A DNA stretch of 64,000 bases. It comes from an uncultured Pelagibacteraceae bacterium (GTDB lineage Bacteria; Pseudomonadota; Alphaproteobacteria; Pelagibacterales; Pelagibacteraceae). Numbering within the stretch: position 1 is the first letter of the stretch; each line of letters begins with the position of its first letter. The stretch lies in the NCBI GenBank assembly GCA_902599955.1, contig CACKHK010000003.1, positions 16,001 through 80,000 on the forward strand. The letters run 5' to 3'. Of this stretch, positions 6,313 through 25,724 are shown one piece after another. Position numbers and translations under genes: made by a program. The notes below the pieces were generated by a model, which did not search any database, was not told where the DNA came from, and was given only the letters and a program-made list of their open reading frames with translations.

Positions 6313-7242
6313 TCAATTAAATTCTATTAATGCATCAACATGTCGTTTAGTACTGCTTTGTAGTGCTCTTAAATCGTAGCCTCCTTCAAGAATTGAAACT
6401 ACTCTCCCCTTACAAAAAGATTTTGAACACTCTAATGTTCTTTTAGTAATTTTGTAAAAATCTTCTGAACTTAGCATGAGTTGCGCTAAAGGATCATCAA
6501 TATGCGCATCAAAACCCGCAGAAAACAATAGAAATTCTGGTTTAAATGTCTTTAATTTATTTAAAACGATTTCGTAGGCATTTAAATATTCTTCTGAGGT
6601 TGTCCCAGCTTTTAATGGAATATTTAATACATTATCATAATTTCCCTTTTCTTTTTCCGATCCTGAACCTGGGTAGTATGGATATTGGTGAGTTGAAATA
6701 TATAAAACTTTTTTGTTATCGTAGAAAATATTTTGTGTCCCATTACCATGGTGAACATCAAAATCAATTATAGCAATTTTATTGTATTTATATTTTTCAA
6801 TTAAATAATTAGCACCAACAGCTACATTATTATAAATACAAAATCCCATAGCTTTATCTTTTTCGGCATGATGACCAGGCGGTCTGACAGCACAAAATGC
6901 ATTTTTAAATTCTTTATTTTCTACACCATTTATTGCTGAAATTATTGAGCCTACTGCATCTTTTGTTGCATCTTTGCTTCCAGGAGAAATGATTGTGTCT
7001 CCGTCTAAAAATACTAAACCTTTTTTAGGAAATGATTTTTCTACTTGATTAACATAATTCTCAGAATGAGTTTTATTAATAAGGGATAAATTAAATTTTG
7101 CTGGTTTTTTCCATATAAGATTTTTGTCGTCTATCTTTTTAAAATTTTCAATTACTGCAGTAACCCTATCAATTTTTTCTGGATGACTATTTCCAGTATC
7201 ATGATTTTTATAGGTATCTGATATTATAAGGCCAGTCTTCAC
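6313..7242 (-). CDS. histone deacetylase family protein (AcuC/class II HDAC-like)
   Basis: RPPGHHAEKDKAMGFCIYNNVAVGA, IDFDVHHGNGTQNIFY, SAGFDAHIDDPL. Confidence 0.92.
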   Translation of the reverse strand: MKTGLIISDTYKNHDTGNSHPEKIDRVTAVIENFKKIDDKNLIWKKPAKFNLSLINKTHSENYVNQVEKSFPKKGLVFLDGDTIISPGSKDATKDAVGSIISAINGVENKEFKNAFCAVRPPGHHAEKDKAMGFCIYNNVAVGANYLIEKYKYNKIAIIDFDVHHGNGTQNIFYDNKKVLYISTHQYPYYPGSGSEKEKGNYDNVLNIPLKAGTTSEEYLNAYEIVLNKLKTFKPEFLLFSAGFDAHIDDPLAQLMLSSEDFYKITKRTLECSKSFCKGRVVSILEGGYDLRALQSSTKRHVDALIEFN

Positions 7243-8396
7243 TTAAAGTAATGTTTTAAAATATTTAAATAAATTAAGCTTAATTTTTTCAAATCAGTCA
7301 ATGAAACTGCTTCATCAACTTTATGCATTGTTTTTCCAACTAAGCCAAATTCTAAACACGGAGCAATTTTTCTTATAAATCTAGCATCTGAGGTACCCCC
7401 AGTTGTTGACAGTTTTGGTTTTATTTTAGTTATTTCTTTTATAATTTTTTGTATCATAAAAGTCGTATGATTTGGCTTTGTAAGAAAAGCCTCTCCTGAA
7501 ACAGCATAATCAATTTTATATTTGGATTTAGTTTTATTACAGATTTTTTTCAAAATCTTTTCGATCTTATTTTTGATTGAATTTGAAGTATGCTTGTTAT
7601 TAAATCTTATATTAAATGTTGCATAAGCAATTCCAGGAATAACATTATCTGCGGTATTATGTATATTAATTTTTGTGATTTCCAGGTTTGTAGGCTGAAA
7701 ATCTTTTGTACCTTTATCAAATTTTATGTCTTTAAGTTCCTTTAGTATTTTTACAATGGTTGTAGAAGGGTTGTTTGCTCTATGAGGATAAGCTACATGC
7801 CCTTGTATACCCGTAATTGTTAATCGACCAGTCATGCTGCCTCTTCGCCCAATTTTTATCATTTCTCCTAATTTATTTGGATTTGTTGGCTCTCCGACTA
7901 AGCAAAAGTCTATTTTTTCTTTTCTCTTTTTTAAGTAATCAACAACTTTTTTAGTTCCATTAATAGCAACACCTTCCTCGTCTCCAGTAATCAAAAGACT
8001 TACTGATCCCTTAAATCCTCTATTTTTTTGAATAAAAATACTAACAGCAGACACGAATGCAGCAATTGAGCTTTTCATATCATTTGCTCCTCTACCGATT
8101 AAATGACCTTTCTTAATTGATGGCTTAAATGGGTTTACCGTCCAATCATTTAAATTTCCAGCAGGGACAACATCTAGATGTCCTGCATAACAAAAGTTAG
8201 GACCATTATTTCCTAATCTTGCATATAGGTTTTTGACTGGTTCACTTCCTTTTTCCTTAAACTCAAGAATTTTAGTTTTAAACCCAAGTTTTTTTAGCTT
8301 CCTTTCCAGAAATTTCATAACTCCTGCATCTTTGGGAGTTACAGTTGGAAATCTAATTAGCTCCTTTGCTAACTGTAATTCATTTATAATTGTCAT
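7239..8396 (-). CDS. dapE: succinyl-diaminopimelate desuccinylase
   Basis: M20 motifs CYAGHLDVVPAG, GRGANDMKSSIAAF, TGDEEG; adjacent to dapD. Confidence 0.95.
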   Translation of the reverse strand: MTIINELQLAKELIRFPTVTPKDAGVMKFLERKLKKLGFKTKILEFKEKGSEPVKNLYARLGNNGPNFCYAGHLDVVPAGNLNDWTVNPFKPSIKKGHLIGRGANDMKSSIAAFVSAVSIFIQKNRGFKGSVSLLITGDEEGVAINGTKKVVDYLKKRKEKIDFCLVGEPTNPNKLGEMIKIGRRGSMTGRLTITGIQGHVAYPHRANNPSTTIVKILKELKDIKFDKGTKDFQPTNLEITKINIHNTADNVIPGIAYATFNIRFNNKHTSNSIKNKIEKILKKICNKTKSKYKIDYAVSGEAFLTKPNHTTFMIQKIIKEITKIKPKLSTTGGTSDARFIRKIAPCLEFGLVGKTMHKVDEAVSLTDLKKLSLIYLNILKHYFK

Positions 8397-8401
8397 TTAA
8401 A

Positions 8402-9229
8402 CTATTCTCTTAAGAGATCGTTAATAGAAGTTTTTGATCTGGTTTTCTCATCAACTTGTTTGATTATTACTGCACAATATAGAGAGGGTGCAGATGAATT
8501 ATTTTTATCTGGAAGTGAACCTGGAACCACAACTGAATAAGGAGGAATTTTTCCATAAGTAATTTCACCAGTTTTTCTATTAACAATTTTTGTAGATTGT
8601 CCAATGTACATTCCCATACTTAGAACAGATCCTTCTCCTACAATTACACCCTCTACAACTTCAGACATTGCACCCAAAAAAACATTATCTTCTATAATTG
8701 TCGGAAGTGCTTGTGCAGGTTCTAATACACCACCGACACCTGATCCTGCAGAGATATGACAATTTTTCCCTATTTGGCTGCAACTTCCTGCTCTTGCAAA
8801 TGTATCAATCATTGTACCTTCATCAATATATGCGCCGATATTAACGTAGCATGGCATTAAAACTGCATTTTTACCTATAAAACTTCCTTTCCTTACTGGA
8901 GAGTTAGGAACCATTCTAAAACCAGCTTTTTCATGATCTTCTTTTGTCCATCCTGCTGTTTTACCTTTAAGTAAATGCGATTTATCATACCAACTACTGT
9001 AAGGACCATTCAAGTTTTCCATAGGATGCAATCTGAAACTCAACATGATTGCTTTTTTTAAATGTTGATGAGTTACCCACTCACCATTTATTTTCTCAGC
9101 CACTCTCGATCTACCACTATCTAAATCATCGATAACTTGATTTATTGTATCTTTAAGAGACTGTTCAGATGACGGGTTTACTTGATCTCTATTTTCCCAA
9201 GCATCATTTATAATATTTTCTATACTCAT
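8402..9229 (-). CDS. dapD: 2,3,4,5-tetrahydropyridine-2,6-dicarboxylate N-succinyltransferase
   Basis: Hexapeptide repeats; [21 protein letters not shown]. Confidence 0.96.
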
Positions 9230-9233
9230 AATT

Positions 9234-9896
9234 TTACGAGTTTTTTAATAACCTTATTTCTTTTAAAAATAAAGAGAGATTTTCTATTTTGTAGTCAATA
9301 TATTCTTTGTTAGATTCCTTTTTTCCCCAATACTCGTTATTGATTAGCCAAACTGTTGTAGCTCCTCTTTCTTTTCCAATTGACAAATTTTTTGCAATAT
9401 CCTCAATATAAATCGTCTCTTTTGGATTAATATCAAATTTCTTAACCATTAAATCGAATGCTTTTGTGGCTGGTTTTGGATGATAATCAGCATCAACAAT
9501 ATCAAATACATCATCAAATAAGTCATCTATACCTAAGTGTGTAGTAATATTTTTAACATGTTCCTTGCTTCCATTAGTAAAAACAAATTTTCTTAGATCT
9601 AATTTTTTTATTTCTTCTCTTAAAACAATGTCTTTCTCCATGAAAGATAGATCAATATCATGAACAAATTGTAAAAATTCTGTTGGGGGAATATCATGGT
9701 GTATCATTAATCCGTTCAGACTCGTGTTGTATTTATGAAAATAATTTGTTTGTAGCTCTTTTGCTTCTTTTAAATCAATCTTTAATTTTTTTGAAATATA
9801 CTGCGTCATTCTTTTGCTTACTTGACCAAATACTGCCTCTAGATCTTGATAAAGAACACCGTCACAATCGAATAAGATATTTTTTATGTGCTTCAT
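9234..9896 (-). CDS. HAD-superfamily pyrimidine 5'-nucleotidase-like protein
   Basis: [28 protein letters not shown]. Confidence 0.85.
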
Positions 9897-10741
9897 CTTC
9901 TTATTAATGTTCCTGCACCTTTATCTGAAAATAATTCGAACAAAATTGAATGTTTTTTTCTTCCATCTATGATTCCTACTCCTGTGACCCCGTTCATTAC
10001 TGCATCTAGGCATGTATTTATTTTGGGTATCATGCCCTCTGTGATTGTTTCATTATTAATCATTTCTAAAATTTCAGAAGAGCTTATCTCTTCGATAAGT
10101 TTTTTTTCTTTATTTAAAACTCCTTCCACATTAGTCATTAATAATAATCTTCTGCATTTTAAAGATTTTGCTATAGCTCCTGCGGCTGTATCCCCATTAA
10201 TGTTATATGTTTGATTATTTTTCCCCAGACCTAAAGGGGATATAATTGGTACTGCATTTATTTTGATTATATCTTTTATTTTATCTACATTTATTTTATT
10301 TGGGATACCGACAAATCCTAGTTCCTCTGCCTCTGGAATAACTTCTATAGCATTGTTTTTTTTTGTATTTAGAGAAACTGCATTTGCACCTTTTTCGACT
10401 AAAGAATTTACAATATCCTCATTAAAATCGATAAGGACATTTTCAACTATATTAATAATTTTTTCATTTGTAACTCTTAATCCTCTTATAAATTTTGATT
10501 GAATATTCGATTTATCTAACTCTCTTTTAATTCTGGGCCCGCCTCCATGAACTATAATTATAGAAAGTCCTAATTTATTTAAAATACTAATATCTGAAAT
10601 AAAATTATTAAAGATATTCCTATCGATAAAAACATTCCCCCCATATTTAATTACAATTAACTGATCTTTATATTTATTTATGTATTTTTTAAATTCATCT
10701 ATTGTAGGACCATCTTTGGGTACAATTTTCTCTATTTCCAT
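9893..10741 (-). CDS. argB: acetylglutamate kinase
   Basis: IKYGGNVF, VHGGGPRIK, NINGDTAAGAIA. Confidence 0.95.
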   Translation of the reverse strand: MEIEKIVPKDGPTIDEFKKYINKYKDQLIVIKYGGNVFIDRNIFNNFISDISILNKLGLSIIIVHGGGPRIKRELDKSNIQSKFIRGLRVTNEKIINIVENVLIDFNEDIVNSLVEKGANAVSLNTKKNNAIEVIPEAEELGFVGIPNKINVDKIKDIIKINAVPIISPLGLGKNNQTYNINGDTAAGAIAKSLKCRRLLLMTNVEGVLNKEKKLIEEISSSEILEMINNETITEGMIPKINTCLDAVMNGVTGVGIIDGRKKHSILFELFSDKGAGTLIRR

Positions 10742-10743
10742 TT

Positions 10744-12426
10744 TTAAACGGTTTTGACAGTCGTTCTCTTTATGATGATGTACTGTTGAGCCATTGTTAA
10801 TATGTTATTTATAGTCCAGTAAATGACTAGTCCAGCCGGGAAAGGAGCTAATATCACTGTTAAAAATAAAGGGAAAAACATAAATATTTTTGCTTGGACA
10901 GGATCAGGTGGTGTTGGATTTAGTTTTTGTTGCATCCACATTGAAACACCCATTAAACAAGGCCAAACACCAATAAGTAAAAAAGAAGGAGGGTCCCATG
11001 GAATTAATCCAAACAAATTAAATATAGAAGTAGGATCCCTTTCACTTAAATCTTTTATCCAACCAAAAAATGGCTGATGTCTCATTTCAATAGTTACAAA
11101 TAAAACCTTATAGATGGCAAAGAAAAATGGAATTTGTATGAAAATTGGAAGGCACCCGCTGATTGGATTAACTTTCTCTCTTTTGTAAAGTGCCATCATT
11201 TCTTGTTGAAGTTTCATTTTGTCTTCTTTATGTAGCTCTTTGAGTCTTGTCATCTCTGGTTGGAGAACTTTCATTTTAGCCATTGATTTAAATGAGTAAT
11301 TAGCAAGTGGAAAAAATACTAATCTAATACAAGCAGTAATCATAATAATTGCTATTCCAAAATTTCCAGCAAGATTAAAGAAATATTGAATTGCAAAAAA
11401 TAAAGGTTTAACGATAAAGTAGAACCATCCCCAATCTATAGCCAAATCAAACTTGCTAATATTTTCAGTTTCAGCATAGTCATCAATAACATTTACTTCT
11501 TTTGCCGCAACTATTGCTTTGATAGAATTAGTTTTTATTTCATTAGCACCAATTTCAGTTGCATCTGTTTCTATAAAATTTGCTCTAAATTTATTTTTAT
11601 AATCAAAATCAGACCTGAAACTTTTCCCATTTTCTGGAATTAGACTAGCAATCCAATATTTATCAGTAATGCCCAGCCATCCAGTATCCGCATTTATAGA
11701 GTATTTTTTTTCCTCAATATCATCATAATCCTCTTCAACTAATTGATCGTCAAAGACACCAATCAGTCCCTCATGCAAAATATAAAAATTTGTTACGTCT
11801 GGTGCAGTGTTTCTTATGATTTGACCGTAAGGATAGAAATTATAAGTTTTATCAGACTTATTTTCTATAGTTTGCTTAATGTCAAAAAGATATTGATTAT
11901 CAATACTAATTTCTTTTGTAAATTTGATATTCTGATTATTTTTCCAACTTAATTTTACAGACGAATTTGGTGTAAGTTTCTTATTTCCCTCAATCTCCCA
12001 CAATGTTTTTGAATTTGGTAGGTCAATATTTTTATTAGTTGATGCCCAACCAGTTTCTACATAGTATCCATTTTCAGATTGTTTAGGATTTAATAGTACA
12101 ACATTATCATCTCCATTTAGAGTGTTTGTATAATTCTTAAAAGTTAAGTCGTCTATAGATGAACCGAGCAATGAAATTGAACCTTTAATTTTATCATTTT
12201 CGAATAAAATTCTTTCATTCTCCTCCAAAGCTTCATCTCTTGAAATCTTAATTATTTTCTCATCTTGAGCTAATGAAGGTGCATCTGATGAAGAATTTTG
12301 ACCTGAAGTGTTTTTATCATTTGAGATATTTTTTTGATCCACGACAGGAGGAGCAAAAAATAAACTGTAAAGTATTATGACAGCTGCGCTTAAAGATATC
12401 GCTGCAATTACATTTTTTGTATCCAT
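10744..12426 (-). CDS. yidC: membrane protein insertase YidC
   Basis: 560 aa, periplasmic domain plus conserved C-terminal insertase TM core; next to yidD/rnpA/rpmH. Confidence 0.97.
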   Translation of the reverse strand: MDTKNVIAAISLSAAVIILYSLFFAPPVVDQKNISNDKNTSGQNSSSDAPSLAQDEKIIKISRDEALEENERILFENDKIKGSISLLGSSIDDLTFKNYTNTLNGDDNVVLLNPKQSENGYYVETGWASTNKNIDLPNSKTLWEIEGNKKLTPNSSVKLSWKNNQNIKFTKEISIDNQYLFDIKQTIENKSDKTYNFYPYGQIIRNTAPDVTNFYILHEGLIGVFDDQLVEEDYDDIEEKKYSINADTGWLGITDKYWIASLIPENGKSFRSDFDYKNKFRANFIETDATEIGANEIKTNSIKAIVAAKEVNVIDDYAETENISKFDLAIDWGWFYFIVKPLFFAIQYFFNLAGNFGIAIIMITACIRLVFFPLANYSFKSMAKMKVLQPEMTRLKELHKEDKMKLQQEMMALYKREKVNPISGCLPIFIQIPFFFAIYKVLFVTIEMRHQPFFGWIKDLSERDPTSIFNLFGLIPWDPPSFLLIGVWPCLMGVSMWMQQKLNPTPPDPVQAKIFMFFPLFLTVILAPFPAGLVIYWTINNILTMAQQYIIIKRTTVKTV

Positions 12427-18843: not shown

Positions 18844-20238
18844 ATGAAGAAAGAAAATAAATTAATACCTGGGTTACCACCAGGGTTTGAAGATCGTTGG
18901 GATAAAAAACTCCTTCTCAAAAAAAAGCTTTTATCAGCAATTGAGAATGTTTTTATTAAGTTTGGTGCTGAGCCACTAGAAACTCCATCGTTTGAGATCA
19001 GTGAAAATATTGGATCATTTTTGGCAGAGGATGAAACTAATCCTATGTCTGATGTATTTTCATTTAAAGATGGAGACAAAAATATTACTCTTCGATACGA
19101 TCTATCAAGTCCCCTAGCAAGATTTGTTGCTCAAAATAATCAAGAGTTACCCTCAATTTATAAAAGATACGCTATTCAAAATGTATTTCGTAATGAAAAG
19201 GCAGGCAATGGAAGGTATAGAGAATTTTTGCAAGCAGATTTTGATATTGTTGGAAAAGTTAATTCCTCACAGGCTAATGCTGAGCTTTGTAATTTAATTT
19301 CAGCAGCATTACTTGAATGTGGACTAAAGAAAGATCAATTTACAATCAATGTAAGTAACAGAAAAATAGTTCAGGGACTATTAGATGATTTAAAAATATC
19401 TGAAGAAAAACAGTTAAAAGTTATTAGAGCAATTGATAAACTTGATAAGCCTGGTTTTGGATTAAAAGGTGTAGAAGATCTCTTAAGAAAAGAAAGAAAA
19501 GATAACAGTGGAGCCATTACAAAAGGTGCTGATTTAAATGATGAGCAGGTTGATAAAATATTAAAATATCTGAAAATTAAGGAGTTAAAAGAGCTAAAAC
19601 AAAGCTTAAAAAATCCATTGTCACAAGAGGGAATAAAAGAGTTGGAAGAATTTTTTGTGGTTCTTGGGTATGGATCAAGTTTAGATCAAGTAAAAACTAA
19701 TTTCACAATTGTGAGAGGTTTAGCTTATTACTCTGATTTTATTGTAGAAACAAATTTAAATTTTAAAGTTACAAATAACAAAGGAAAAGAAGTAGATATC
19801 GGCAGTGTTTGCTCAGGAGGAGCCTACGCTAAGCTTATATCAAGATTTAAAGGTGTAGATATTCCAGGAACAGGTATAAGTTTTGGTGTAGACAGACTTT
19901 TATTTGCATTAATGCAATTAGATCAAATTCAATTAGATGAACAAAAACCAGTTTTGGTATGTGTAATGGATCAAAAATATTTACAAAATTATTACGAAAT
20001 TTTAGACCTCTTAAGACAAAATAATATTAATGCTGAAATATTTTTAGATTCTAAAAAAAATCTTGGTAAACAGCTTACTTTTGCAAACAAACGCCAATTA
20101 CCAGTTGCTATTATTTGTGGGGAAAATGAGTTTAAAGATAATACGGTGACAATTAAAAATTTAAAAGGCATTAAGGGAGAGAATAATAAAACTTTTTCAA
20201 AGAAAGATTTAATTAATGAAGTCAAAAAACTTATCTGA
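18844..20238 (+). CDS. hisS: histidyl-tRNA synthetase
   Basis: RNEKAGNGRYREFLQADFDIVG, IVRGLAYYSDFIVE; class II aaRS; followed by hisZ-hisG. Confidence 0.94.
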   Translation: MKKENKLIPGLPPGFEDRWDKKLLLKKKLLSAIENVFIKFGAEPLETPSFEISENIGSFLAEDETNPMSDVFSFKDGDKNITLRYDLSSPLARFVAQNNQELPSIYKRYAIQNVFRNEKAGNGRYREFLQADFDIVGKVNSSQANAELCNLISAALLECGLKKDQFTINVSNRKIVQGLLDDLKISEEKQLKVIRAIDKLDKPGFGLKGVEDLLRKERKDNSGAITKGADLNDEQVDKILKYLKIKELKELKQSLKNPLSQEGIKELEEFFVVLGYGSSLDQVKTNFTIVRGLAYYSDFIVETNLNFKVTNNKGKEVDIGSVCSGGAYAKLISRFKGVDIPGTGISFGVDRLLFALMQLDQIQLDEQKPVLVCVMDQKYLQNYYEILDLLRQNNINAEIFLDSKKNLGKQLTFANKRQLPVAIICGENEFKDNTVTIKNLKGIKGENNKTFSKKDLINEVKKLI

Positions 20239-21265
20239 GAATATTCTTAAATCTTTAAAATCGAGTAGATTTGATTATATTGATTTAGATACAGTAATAC
20301 CTACCAATTTAATTCTTGAAAGATCCGGTGAGTCATTTAGGAGTTTAATTTTTTCATTTGTCGACCAGAATGGAAAAGAAATTTGTTTAAGACCAGATTT
20401 AACCGTTGCGTCTTGTATTAAATATCTTAATCAAAAAAAAAAACTATCTTCAAAAGTTTTTTACAGCGGGCAAGCATTCAGAAAAGTTCAGAAAAAAACT
20501 GATAAAATTATTAGAGATCAAATAGGCTTTGAGATCTTAGGATCAAAAGATGAGAAAAGAGATGATAAGCAAATCATAAATACAAGTATTAAAGTTATAA
20601 ATAAATTTAGATACAAAACTGGAAGTATAACAATCGGTAACGTCGAAATTTTTCATCTGTTAATTAATAAATTAGATATTCCAAAAAGATGGAGGCTTCG
20701 ATTACAAAGACATTTTTGGAGAGAAAGTTATTTTAATGAATTATTGAAACGTTTAGAGACTAACTCAGATGTAGACGAAACAATCGTTGAATTTGATAAA
20801 AAAAGATATCTGAAAATGTTTAAACAAAATCAAAATAGAAATATTGCAGGACGTACTTTGAGAGAAATTTTGATGAGGTTTGATAATAAAATTAGAGACC
20901 CTAGAAGACAAATAAAAGGCCAAAATGTTGTAAAAGTTATTAGAGACTATTTAAAAATTAGTTGTCCTATGAGCAAAGCAGCAACTACTCTAAATACTTT
21001 TTTTAAACAAAATAAAATCAATCTTAGTGTTGGAAAAAATTATTTTCCAATAACTACAGATAAAGTTTCAAAGTTAAATGTAAATTTTTCATCTTCATTC
21101 GGCAGACATTTAGAATATTACACAGGTATGGTTTTTAAAATTCAAACAAAGGTAAAATCAAAAAAAATTGAGGTAAATGGTGGACGTTATGACAATCTTA
21201 TTAGTAATTTAGGATCTAAAATAAAGGTCCCAGCTGTAGGAGGCGCAATAAACTTAAATGATTAA
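20216..21265 (+). CDS. hisZ: ATP phosphoribosyltransferase regulatory subunit
   Basis: HisRS-like paralog between hisS and short-form hisG; RPDLTVASCIKYLNQ, YSGQAFRKVQ. Confidence 0.88.
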   Translation: MKSKNLSENILKSLKSSRFDYIDLDTVIPTNLILERSGESFRSLIFSFVDQNGKEICLRPDLTVASCIKYLNQKKKLSSKVFYSGQAFRKVQKKTDKIIRDQIGFEILGSKDEKRDDKQIINTSIKVINKFRYKTGSITIGNVEIFHLLINKLDIPKRWRLRLQRHFWRESYFNELLKRLETNSDVDETIVEFDKKRYLKMFKQNQNRNIAGRTLREILMRFDNKIRDPRRQIKGQNVVKVIRDYLKISCPMSKAATTLNTFFKQNKINLSVGKNYFPITTDKVSKLNVNFSSSFGRHLEYYTGMVFKIQTKVKSKKIEVNGGRYDNLISNLGSKIKVPAVGGAINLND

Positions 21266-21935
21266 AATTGGCATTCCTAGCAAAGGTAGACTTAGAAAAG
21301 ATACTTTAAGTATTTTTAAAAATAAAAATCTTAAAATTTTATCAGAAAGAGGAGAAAGAGACCTTTTTGGATATATAAAAGGAAATAATAAAATTAAAAT
21401 AGTATATTTGCATGCAAGAGAAATTATAGAAAGATTAGGGGATGGTTCTTTAGATATAGGTTTTTCAGGCTATGATTTACTAAAAGAGTCTGAATTAAAT
21501 GTTCAAAAAAAAATTATTATTAATAAAAAACTCGATTATGGAAATGCAACTTTAGTTGTAGCTGTTCCTGACGAGTGGATAGATGTCCAAACACTTGCTG
21601 ATTTAGAGGAAATATCTTTTGATTTTAAAGATAATAAGAAAAGTAGATTAAGAGTTGCAACAAAATATCCAAATTTGACCAAAGAATTTTTATTTTCAAA
21701 AGGAGTAACTCAATTTAAATTAGTACCTTCTCTTGGAGCAACTGAGGTATATCCATTTACTGGTTCATCTGAGATTTTAACCGATATAACCAGTACAGGA
21801 GAGACTTTAAAAGCTAACAATTTAAGAATATTAAAGGATGGAAATATTCTTAAAAGTACAGCAATCTTAATGTCGAATAAAAAATCAAGTAACCAAATTG
21901 GTTTAAAGAAAATTTTAAATTTACTTAGTTCTTAG
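21258..21935 (+). CDS. hisG: ATP phosphoribosyltransferase (short form)
   Basis: IGIPSKGRLRKDT, DIGFSGYDLL, GATEVYPFTGSSEILTDI. Confidence 0.94.
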   Translation: MIKIGIPSKGRLRKDTLSIFKNKNLKILSERGERDLFGYIKGNNKIKIVYLHAREIIERLGDGSLDIGFSGYDLLKESELNVQKKIIINKKLDYGNATLVVAVPDEWIDVQTLADLEEISFDFKDNKKSRLRVATKYPNLTKEFLFSKGVTQFKLVPSLGATEVYPFTGSSEILTDITSTGETLKANNLRILKDGNILKSTAILMSNKKSSNQIGLKKILNLLSS

Positions 21936-21979: not shown

Positions 21980-23080
21980 ATGTATACTATAATTCTTATT
22001 TTACTTTCACTCTCACTTATTAGTTCAGTATTAATTATATATTTGAATTTTAAATCAAAGAATGAAACTCATAATGAGAAAGAAAATCAGGAGATTCAAA
22101 GACTAAATCAAGAAATTATAAATTTAAAAGAATCTTTAAATACAACAATAAATAGTACTATGAGCTCAATGGCTACTTCTTTTAATAATCTTTCATCAGG
22201 TGTAACAAAAGATATGACAAATGCTTTAACTCAAGTAGATCAAAAAGTAGCTTCCTTTAATGCTCAAGTTGAAAATTTGAATGAAAGTCAGAAGGGAATT
22301 AATCAAATATTGGCAGGTGTTAAAAAGTATGGAACCTTAGCTGAGTTTAGTTTGGGCTCCCTGATTAAGGATTTGTTGCCAGCATCTCAATATTCATCAA
22401 ATGTAAAAATGAAAGAAGATACGGGTGAAAATGTTGAATTTGCAATTAAACTTCAAGATGGGATTTTGGTTCCAGTTGATAGCCACTTTCCAGTTGAAAG
22501 ATTTAAGGCCATCCAAGATGCTCATCAGGAAGATGACAAGAAAGCTATGGCTGATGCAAGAACTAAACTTGCTAGAGCATTTAAAGAAAAAGCTAAAAGC
22601 GTGAATGAAAAATATATCGTTCCACCTAAAACAACAGATTTTGCAATTGTTTATGCGCCAACTGAAAGTTTATTTTTAGAATTAGCTAATTATCAAGATT
22701 CATCTACAAAAGAATTATTAACTCAAGAATTAATGAAGAAATATAAAGTAACTATCATGGGCCCTAATAATTTATCTGGTTACTTACAATCACTTCATAT
22801 GGGATTTCAGAGCTTACGAATTAAAAAACATGCATCTGAAATATATGATCATTTAAAAAAAATAAGCACCAGATTTAATATGCATTTTAATAATGTTTTA
22901 GTTTTAAGAAAAAAATTAGAAGAAGCAATGTCGGTCGTTGATAGTTTTGGCAAAGATGCTAGAGCAATAAACAGAAGTATTGACTCAATAAAAAATCCTA
23001 ATGATGACGATGATCCAGATCCAAGTTCTCCATCTCCAATTTCTGGTTACGGTCAGGATGAAAAACGAAAAGTTTCTTAA
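21980..23080 (+). CDS. rmuC: DNA recombination protein RmuC
   Basis: N-terminal TM and coiled coil; EFAIKLQDGILVPVDSHFPVERF, YIVPPKTTDFAIVYAPTESLF, GPNNLSGYLQSLHMGFQ. Confidence 0.92.
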   Translation: MYTIILILLSLSLISSVLIIYLNFKSKNETHNEKENQEIQRLNQEIINLKESLNTTINSTMSSMATSFNNLSSGVTKDMTNALTQVDQKVASFNAQVENLNESQKGINQILAGVKKYGTLAEFSLGSLIKDLLPASQYSSNVKMKEDTGENVEFAIKLQDGILVPVDSHFPVERFKAIQDAHQEDDKKAMADARTKLARAFKEKAKSVNEKYIVPPKTTDFAIVYAPTESLFLELANYQDSSTKELLTQELMKKYKVTIMGPNNLSGYLQSLHMGFQSLRIKKHASEIYDHLKKISTRFNMHFNNVLVLRKKLEEAMSVVDSFGKDARAINRSIDSIKNPNDDDDPDPSSPSPISGYGQDEKRKVS

Positions 23081-23091
23081 AGCCTAAATGA

Positions 23092-23778
23092 ATGAAATGG
23101 AGTAATAAATTTATTTATCCAAAATCTACAAGGTCAATTGAGGATGGATATAGAAAATATTCCTTAGGTGAGGAAAAACTACCAAGTGTTACTACAATTT
23201 TAAGTGCTACTAAATCCGAAGAGGAAAAGGCAGCTATCAAAAATTGGCAGGAGCGGGTAGGTTTTAAGGAAGCAAATAGAATTAAGACTGAAGCCTCTTC
23301 AAGAGGAACGTCAATGCACTCTTATATTGAAGATTATTTAAGAGGAAGAATTAACGAAAGCTTTTTTGAAAGTAATGAACAATACAAAAATATGGCCAAA
23401 GAAATAATTGAAAAGGGGGTAAATAATAAATTAGATGAAATTTATGGGCTGGAAGAAACTATTTATTATCCAGAGCAATATGCTGGAACTGCAGATTTAA
23501 TTGGAATTTATCAGGGCAAAGATGTCATAATAGATTTTAAGCAGAGTAATAAACCAAAAAAAATAGATTATATTCAAGATTATTTCTTGCAACTTGGAGC
23601 ATATACTTTGGCTCACGATGTCGTACATGGAACAAAAATGAAAGCAGGGATAATCTTACTCTGTACAAAAGATATTCTGTTTCAAGAATTTAAAATTGAA
23701 GGTGCAGAATTAGAGATGTATCAAAATTTATTCATGGGAAGAGTTAAAAAATTTTACGAGATGAATAATATAGCTTGA
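23092..23778 (+). CDS. PD-(D/E)XK exonuclease, MGME1-like
   Basis: PSVTTILSAT, GTSMHSYIEDYL, YAGTADLIGIYQGKDVIIDFKQSNKP, LQLGAYTLA. Confidence 0.72.
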   Translation: MKWSNKFIYPKSTRSIEDGYRKYSLGEEKLPSVTTILSATKSEEEKAAIKNWQERVGFKEANRIKTEASSRGTSMHSYIEDYLRGRINESFFESNEQYKNMAKEIIEKGVNNKLDEIYGLEETIYYPEQYAGTADLIGIYQGKDVIIDFKQSNKPKKIDYIQDYFLQLGAYTLAHDVVHGTKMKAGIILLCTKDILFQEFKIEGAELEMYQNLFMGRVKKFYEMNNIA

Positions 23779-23902: not shown

Positions 23903-25336
23903 ATGAACTTAGCAATTTGGGACATAGAATCATCGAGTGCTAGCACTGACTTTGGTAGCATTATAGAAATTGGTGGAATACTATTTGATGAGAATTTTAA
24001 AGAAAAAGATAGATTTAATCTTAGATGCAGACTTCATGAAACTGAGATTTTTCAAGCGGCAGCCTTGATAGTCAACAAGACATCAATTAAACAACTTACT
24101 CAAACAAATCTAAGCCATTACCAAATGCTTGGACAGGTAGAAAAAATCTTTAAGAAATGGAGCCCCGCTATTTTCTTGGGATGGAGTTCGCTAAATTTCG
24201 ATGAGGAGATGATAAGAAAAGAATTTTTCAAAAGCATTAGGTATCCTTATTTGACAAATTCTGCTCCTAATACAAGACATGATGGAATTAATATTGCAAG
24301 AGCTGCATACGCAGTAGATCCAACAGTTTTAGAAACTGAAATTAATGAAAAAAATAACCCAGTTTTTAAATTAGCATCTCTTGCTCAGATGCAAGGCATA
24401 GATGCAAGTGATGCTCACTCCGCGCTAGCTGATGCAGAACTTACTGCAAAAGTTTTAAAAATTGTAAAAAAAAAACAAGAACATACTTGGGAGTCTTTTT
24501 TAAGCACTGCAAATAAATCTAATACTGAAACTATTATAAAAAAAGGAGAAATTATAACATTAAACGAATATTATTATGGAAAGTCTAGGCTTCATTTAGT
24601 TGTACCGCTACATACAAAACATTGTATGCATCCTATTTATCAAGGATGGTATTACACAATAGATCTTAGAACAGAAATTCAACCATTGATTAATAAATCT
24701 ATAAATGAATTAAAAACCGAGATGAAAAAAACACCCAAGTTTTTAAGAACGGTTAGATCAAACAAAGCACCAATAATTATTGATGCAAAATATGGCTTGA
24801 GTGTTGAACCATATAATAAATTAGATAAAAACGTTATTAAAAAAAGAGCTGAATTTGTTCAAAACAATGAACAGTTTTCACAAAATATTTTAACTGCCCT
24901 TCGTGAGGTTGCAGAAGAAAAAGAACAATCAAAATCACAAGAAGATATATATGCAGAAGAGAGCATTTATACAAAATTTACATCAAATAAGGATACCGCT
25001 TTGTTTCCAAGTTGGCATGATGCGCCATGGAAAGAGAAATTAAATTTATTAGATAAGTTTGACGACGATAGATTGGTTAGTTTTGGTAAAAAAATCATCT
25101 TTCAAGAAGCTCCGGAGATACTTCCAGACTCTATGTATAAATCAATCAGAAGAGATATAGCAAAAAGAATACTGAGTGAAAAAAAAGAAAAATGGTGGAC
25201 TATTCCAACTTTATATAATGAAATTGATACTTTAAGAGAAAAATATACTAATGAAAACGACAATGAAAAATTAGCACTTTTGGATGAGTTTAATAATTAT
25301 GCAATGTCAATTCAAAAAAAGTATGAAAATGTTTAA
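23903..25336 (+). CDS. sbcB: exodeoxyribonuclease I-like DEDD exonuclease
   Basis: AIWDIESSSASTDFGSIIEIGGILFD, FLGWSSLNFDEEMIRKEFF, DAHSALADAELTAKVL. Confidence 0.82.
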   Translation: MNLAIWDIESSSASTDFGSIIEIGGILFDENFKEKDRFNLRCRLHETEIFQAAALIVNKTSIKQLTQTNLSHYQMLGQVEKIFKKWSPAIFLGWSSLNFDEEMIRKEFFKSIRYPYLTNSAPNTRHDGINIARAAYAVDPTVLETEINEKNNPVFKLASLAQMQGIDASDAHSALADAELTAKVLKIVKKKQEHTWESFLSTANKSNTETIIKKGEIITLNEYYYGKSRLHLVVPLHTKHCMHPIYQGWYYTIDLRTEIQPLINKSINELKTEMKKTPKFLRTVRSNKAPIIIDAKYGLSVEPYNKLDKNVIKKRAEFVQNNEQFSQNILTALREVAEEKEQSKSQEDIYAEESIYTKFTSNKDTALFPSWHDAPWKEKLNLLDKFDDDRLVSFGKKIIFQEAPEILPDSMYKSIRRDIAKRILSEKKEKWWTIPTLYNEIDTLREKYTNENDNEKLALLDEFNNYAMSIQKKYENV

Positions 25337-25403: not shown

Positions 25404-25724
25404 ATGGCAACAATAAATGTAACTGATGAAAACTTTGACGAAAAAGTTTTAAAAAGTGATAAACCAGTTCTTGTAGATTTTTGGGCAGAATGGTGTGGAC
25501 CTTGTAAAATGGTGGGCCCTATTTTAGAGGAAATATCAAATGAAATGGCCGAGGAAGTTGTGGTTGCAAAACACGACATAGACTCTCAACCTAACGTTCC
25601 AACGCGATATTCGATAAGAGGAATTCCTACTATGCTCTTATTTTCAGGTGGAGAGTTAAAAGCTACTAAAGTTGGTGCTACGCCTAAAAGTGATATAGTT
25701 TCTTTTATTAAAGAAAATATCTAA
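25404..25724 (+). CDS. trxA: thioredoxin
   Basis: VDFWAEWCGPCKMVGPILEE. Confidence 0.97.
   Translation: MATINVTDENFDEKVLKSDKPVLVDFWAEWCGPCKMVGPILEEISNEMAEEVVVAKHDIDSQPNVPTRYSIRGIPTMLLFSGGELKATKVGATPKSDIVSFIKENI

Follow-up and report, generated by a model that had tools for sequence, protein, structure and literature searches.

An MGME1-like exonuclease gene of apparent phage origin in the rmuC-sbcB operon of Pelagibacter, a candidate replacement for RecJ

How did a gene resembling human MGME1, the mitochondrial single-stranded DNA (ssDNA) exonuclease, come to lie in a SAR11 chromosome, and what might it do there? The gene (exo) occupies positions 23092..23778 of the forward strand of the window (the whole stretch of 64,000 nucleotides that was analysed), runs from an ATG start to a TGA stop and encodes a 228 aa PD-(D/E)XK exonuclease of the MGME1/PHROG 298 type. 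The motifs quoted for it in an earlier note, made from the letters of this DNA, were all found in the translation: PSVTTIL (residues 31-37), RGTSMHSYIE (71-80), YAGTADLIGIYQGKDVIIDFKQSNKPKKI (130-158) and LQLGAYTLAHD (166-176). That note spoke of a SAR11-type genome, and the exo homologs of 86-99% identity indeed belong to named Pelagibacteraceae. Its description of an intact chromosomal homolog also holds: the frame is intact, the catalytic residues are unchanged in 80/80 SAR11 loci and the median dN/dS over these loci is 0.045, indicating strong purifying selection.

Family, residues and predicted fold

When exo was compared with 177,635 PDB sequences (phmmer), human MGME1 was the sole significant match (E 7e-10), and a 67-sequence family profile also matched MGME1 alone (4e-28) over profile positions 29-225, almost the entire domain. 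Against PHROGs, exo matched phrog_298 ("exonuclease") at 3e-51, with the runner-up family at 1.5e-7, and human MGME1 matched the same family at 2e-22, with the runner-up at 4e-4. Clade profiles scored MGME1 at 74 bits (T4-like phages), 68 (marine podophages), 65 (jumbo phages), 58 (SAR11) and 12 (AddB); the T4-like phages are thus the clade scoring nearest to MGME1, and SAR11 is the lowest of the four family clades. Going by the PHROG 298 matches and clade-profile scores, exo and MGME1 each represent a separate cellular branch of a family found mainly in viruses. Searches of the viral contigs with single sequences (human MGME1; P0001) gave no match, and the viral homologs were reached with clade alignments as queries. 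A mixed 25-sequence alignment was too diverse for scanning, and the fold input was the alignment of the window with the fetched loci.

The residues by which MGME1 binds ssDNA or metal (S132, T134, W152, H180, D238, D251, K253, Q271 and Y275; PMC6237815) align, in order, with exo S32, T34, W52, H76, D135, D148, K150, Q167 and Y171, which are at least 90% conserved among 67 homologs and invariant in the 80 SAR11 loci. All of the RecB-type motifs are present: Ia (His, H76), II (Asp, D135), III (D-x-K, D148-x-K150) and IV (Q-x3-Y, Q167-x3-Y171), and their residues do not vary in the homolog alignment (A5). By the same alignment, S32 and T34 of exo match the SVT contacts of MGME1 with the ssDNA phosphates (S132, T134), and W52 takes the place of the pin residue W152. 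The two-residue pin of the human enzyme is nevertheless incomplete in exo, where Ser69 aligns with Phe173, the second pin residue, which aids duplex opening (PMC6237815). Thr254 of MGME1 corresponds to Gln151 of exo.

The AlphaFold model of exo has a mean pLDDT of 94.9 and a pTM of 0.90. Used as a Foldseek query, it placed nine of nine MGME1 chains at the head of the matches (E 2e-12 to 7e-11, best TM 0.75/0.85), followed by RecE (1.4e-5, TM 0.46), with Cas4, LHK-Exo and AddAB lower down. The predicted helices at residues 43-56 and 58-84 match alpha2 (143-160) and alpha3 (162-187), the arch helices of human MGME1 (PMC6237815), so that exo is predicted to carry a helical arch over its active site.

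Sequence, profile, fold and residues all support the reading of exo as an MGME1-like PD-(D/E)XK exonuclease, and the better matches that the earlier note had named as grounds against it (AddB, Cas4, YqaJ) fail on profile scores and fold. AddB/RecB was rejected as the nearest family, since the AddB profile gave only those 12 bits with MGME1 against 58-74 for the family clades; an AddB nuclease is, besides, expected as the C-terminal domain of a protein of ~1000-1200 aa, and exo is a stand-alone ORF. Cas4 was rejected because the PADLOC Cas4_II model reached 20.9 bits and exo has one Cys (C191) where the Fe-S cluster of Cas4 has four. YqaJ/lambda exonuclease was rejected on the lack of a Pfam YqaJ match and on a Foldseek TM of ~0.35 (E 1e-3) for lambda exonuclease; Pfam gave a marginal PDDEXK_1 match.

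Origin of the Pelagibacter gene and the place of MGME1

The gene was detected in 71/76 sampled Pelagibacter genomes and in 0/18 sampled genomes of other genera of the family. Among 385 sampled genomes of the class beyond the genus, a single stand-alone homolog was found (G251, on a short contig), the remaining matches being AddB-sized, AddB-like or weak, and 0/398-399 sampled genomes of further Pseudomonadota had a match at 1e-6. The G251 homolog (L085), a stand-alone protein of 286 aa and of the PHROG 298 type, has a Gln/Pro-rich frame next to it and is possibly foreign DNA. The sole match in the sister family was a 44-residue exo fragment sharing one contig (C25 of G467) with a Pelagibacter-like sbcB; this fragment is probably genus-level contamination of a genome that is 64% complete.

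In the phylogeny, the SAR11 copies fall into a single clade (SH-aLRT 95-96) that lies within the marine phages. Its sister is pelagiphage HTVC023P (support 85), the supports that bear on the exact donor being moderate (83-85). Other phage genes lay beside the homolog in 76 of 80 related viral contigs, and a SAR11 neighbour in none. This nesting, together with the distribution of exo, gives the direction as phage to host. The gene entered an existing operon, because rmuC and sbcB are adjacent in genera without exo: the gap between them is ~10-15 bp in G418 and G470, and the rmuC of these two genomes shares 57-60% identity with that of the window. The phage exchange that had been mentioned as an alternative is thus the reading favoured, on the nesting among marine phages, the near absence of the family from other Alphaproteobacteria and Pseudomonadota and the insertion into the rmuC-sbcB pair; on these comparisons of sequence, exo in Pelagibacter is apparently a phage capture and not the alphaproteobacterial ancestor of MGME1.

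The converse, that exo is a vertical alphaproteobacterial gene left over from the ancestor to which mitochondria owe their MGME1, draws on its MGME1-like character in an alphaproteobacterial chromosome and on an AU test that leaves a human plus SAR11 clade standing (p 0.78), a test made on one long-branch human sequence that allows several placements. Against it are the 1/385 stand-alone homologs in the class beyond the genus and the lack of any match in the 398-399 other Pseudomonadota, on which distribution vertical inheritance in Alphaproteobacteria was rejected, as well as the lowest score of the SAR11 clade with MGME1 and the position of exo between rmuC and sbcB. We consider this origin extremely improbable.

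The proposal that a chromosomal homolog in SAR11 bears specially on the origin of MGME1 finds no support, human MGME1 scoring every phage clade above the SAR11 clade. T4-like phages carry their homolog in a replication operon, with phoH or rnh upstream and gp33, gp59 and gp32 downstream; gp33 follows at a median of 8 bp, and at least one of gp33, gp59 and gp32 was present in 62/62 loci with enough flank. The free tree put MGME1 on the T4 side, where it is a single human sequence with a branch length of 3.1-3.7 changes per site; placement trees were run with and without long branches, eukaryotes being represented by that one sequence. Judged by sequence, MGME1 belongs to the phage family, and no alphaproteobacterial route is seen in these data. 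Phage ancestry has reportedly been proposed for the mtDNA polymerase, helicase and RNA polymerase, by Shutt and Gray in 2006. MGME1 is a disease gene and a replisome partner, and its membership of a phage family whose genes adjoin gp33, gp59 and gp32 allows a viral origin to be put as a testable hypothesis, in parallel with that proposal. No discussion of the origin of MGME1 was found in the literature searched (open-licence PMC papers). We put forward, only tentatively, a wider scenario in which cells twice acquired a nuclease from a family of ssDNA exonucleases associated with phage replisomes. In eukaryotes it would have become mitochondrial MGME1, along with the phage-like mtDNA replisome; in Pelagibacter it would have taken over 5' resection from RecJ, and would thereby underlie the repair of the highly recombining SAR11, which lack RecF and AddAB.

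Operon, repair gene content and proposed function

The gene order in the window is hisS-hisZ-hisG-rmuC-exo-sbcB-trxA-folC-accD, and the neighbours of exo there are all bacterial housekeeping genes, with no phage genes among them. The features of the window given below with coordinates are all on the forward strand. The left border of the locus is formed by hisS, hisZ and hisG (18844..21935), the basis of the genus tree. The rmuC gene (21980..23080, 366 aa; Pfam RmuC 1.6e-45) ends 11 bp upstream of exo, and sbcB, encoding exonuclease I (23903..25336, 477 aa; Pfam Exonuc_X-T_C 2.6e-17, RNase_T below cut-off), begins 124 bp downstream. On the right, the locus is bordered by trxA (25404..25724), identified from its translation, within the conserved block rmuC-exo-sbcB-trxA-folC.

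The rmuC-exo-sbcB genes are kept together in ~110 loci. Atypical genomes keep the exo-sbcB pair despite an sbcB identity of 25-55%, an altered order, or DISARM or methylase neighbours, and the five genus members without exo have an sbcB that is divergent or missing (5/5), four of them also being without a recognisable rmuC. From the persistence of the linkage and the state of sbcB in the exo-less members, we infer that exo is a functional partner of SbcB.

Some of these loci are islands. Genes for DISARM DrmA/DrmB and a methyl-directed restriction enzyme, or for cytosine methylases, adjoin exo-sbcB in some Pelagibacter (L153 of G502, 6699-10962; L161, 2702-3976; L162, 1975-3789), and the interval from hisG to trxA has the look of a hotspot for integration. 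A Lys-rich protein of ~125-145 aa, with no Pfam match, recurs beside sbcB or rmuC in islands (L153, 3933-4328; L154, 4033-4449; L161, 7483-7917; L146, 2811-3185; L151, 2931-3305). The trxA beside sbcB in L155-L158, L149 and L162 is 33-35% identical to that of the window, compared with 51-73% in sister genera; this divergence among congeners is a probable xenologous replacement or paralogy.

Such neighbours, the divergent sbcB that accompanies them in L153, L161 and L162, and the match of the window sbcB to the PADLOC RT-associated SbcB model (1e-69) could mean that rmuC-exo-sbcB belongs to an anti-phage or recombination island, as a mobile module of the defence type that breaks down the replication intermediates of phages. 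Most genomes, however, hold these genes in the fixed housekeeping context hisG-rmuC-exo-sbcB-trxA-folC (~110 loci) with no defence genes, and exo, in contrast to defence genes, occurs in nearly every member of the genus and is under the strong constraint given above (dN/dS 0.045). A defence module is accordingly held to be improbable.

SAR11 bacteria are reported to be without RecBCD, RecF and MutSL and to recombine promiscuously (PMC12374537). AddB (TIGR02786) and MutS were each found in 0/147 genomes of the order, and a mismatch-repair role for exo was rejected, as MutS is missing from the whole order. No AddA was found above the cut-off in the order; the profile matches below it are UvrD-like proteins of 680-750 aa and therefore fail to show AddA. 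ExoVII (xseA) was found in none of the Pelagibacter genomes; it is also missing from two related genera (g279, g280) and is retained elsewhere in the order.

The gene recJ, which encodes a standard repair enzyme, is kept in 15/76 Pelagibacter genomes and lacking in 61/76, compared with 17/18 and 1/18 in the sister genera. This distribution is new here. The contrast (Fisher 4e-9) ignores relatedness and is essentially that of one lineage with its sisters; on a 62-genome tree of the his locus, recJ underwent 5 changes, of which at least 3 are forced. The window genome is 71% complete, and the absence of recJ from it was judged from its relatives. Both exo and recJ occur in 13 Pelagibacter genomes, and neither in three members of the genus that are 95-96% complete (G458, G481 and G483); sbcB was also undetectable in G458 and G481.

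RecJ degrades 5'->3', and ExoI/SbcB 3'->5'. Human MGME1 degrades ssDNA 5'->3' from a 5'-phosphate (PMC9460513), although its polarity is debated and has been described as bidirectional (PMC11551736). The best hypothesis is that exo is a domesticated 5'-to-3' ssDNA exonuclease that partners SbcB and replaces RecJ, because AddB, MutS and ExoVII are absent, recJ is distributed as described, and the polarity of MGME1 is that of RecJ and opposite to that of SbcB. The enzyme would be a Mg2+-dependent RecB-type PD-(D/E)XK nuclease. The ssDNA would be threaded under the helical arch, where the PSVT motif, W52 and Q167/Y171 would grip it and the metal site H76/D135/D148/K150 would cleave it, probably from the 5' end. 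A Pelagibacter ancestor would have acquired exo from a marine, HTVC023P-like phage into the rmuC-sbcB operon and retained it to act at the 5' end in partnership with SbcB, a 3'->5' exonuclease; where AddAB, ExoVII and MutS are lacking, exo would render RecJ dispensable, leading to repeated later loss of recJ. We infer action at the 5' end, and a substitution for RecJ that is neither strict nor proven. As a whole, this is the best explanation of the data, with a probability of roughly 0.6.

A phage-derived exo might also have been retained to do some general chore in replication or repair that is unrelated to RecJ (flap or primer-end trimming, ssDNA scavenging), recJ loss then being ordinary streamlining. 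Streamlined SAR11 have independently lost many repair genes (xseA, mutS, addB), and the company of gp33, gp59 and gp32 in T4-like phages (62/62 testable loci) suggests end processing in replication. Yet recJ is retained in 17/18 equally small sister-genus genomes without exo, and its repeated loss is seen only where exo is present, which makes such a chore rather unlikely. For SAR11, exo offers a specific candidate for the nuclease missing from 5' end processing. Within an already known family it is a new cellular representative, and its interest lies in the phage capture, the operon and the recJ pattern.

Comparison with known systems

The phage members of PHROG 298 (HTVC023P gp85, 023Pt, HTVC027P gp27, Atu_ph07, RaK2 RecB and cyanophage T4-GC 325) are the equals of exo in length, fold and motifs, with 38-47% identity to it in the pelagiphages and jumbo phages. 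Unlike these phage genes, exo is fixed in the chromosome, lies in a bacterial rmuC-sbcB operon and is under purifying selection at the level of the host. Human MGME1 (DDK1/C20orf72) shares with exo the family, fold, arch, catalytic residues and most ssDNA-contact residues, including W152 (W52 in exo); identity is ~22-25%, exo is without the mitochondrial targeting region, and it is nearer to the phage members than to MGME1. Both links had been noticed by sequence depositors: the record of phage GAP32 already remarks a similarity to SAR11_0482, and that of phage Moby a BLAST homology to human Q9BQP7. Papers discussing either link were not found in the searched literature (open-licence PMC papers).

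The C-terminal nuclease domain of AddB/RecB has the RecB-type PD-(D/E)XK fold and motifs Ia-IV in common with exo, which differs in standing alone with no helicase. RecJ has an unrelated (DHH) fold, and its common point with exo is the proposed role, 5'->3' trimming of ssDNA; the pattern in which exo and recJ co-occur suggests replacement rather than homology.
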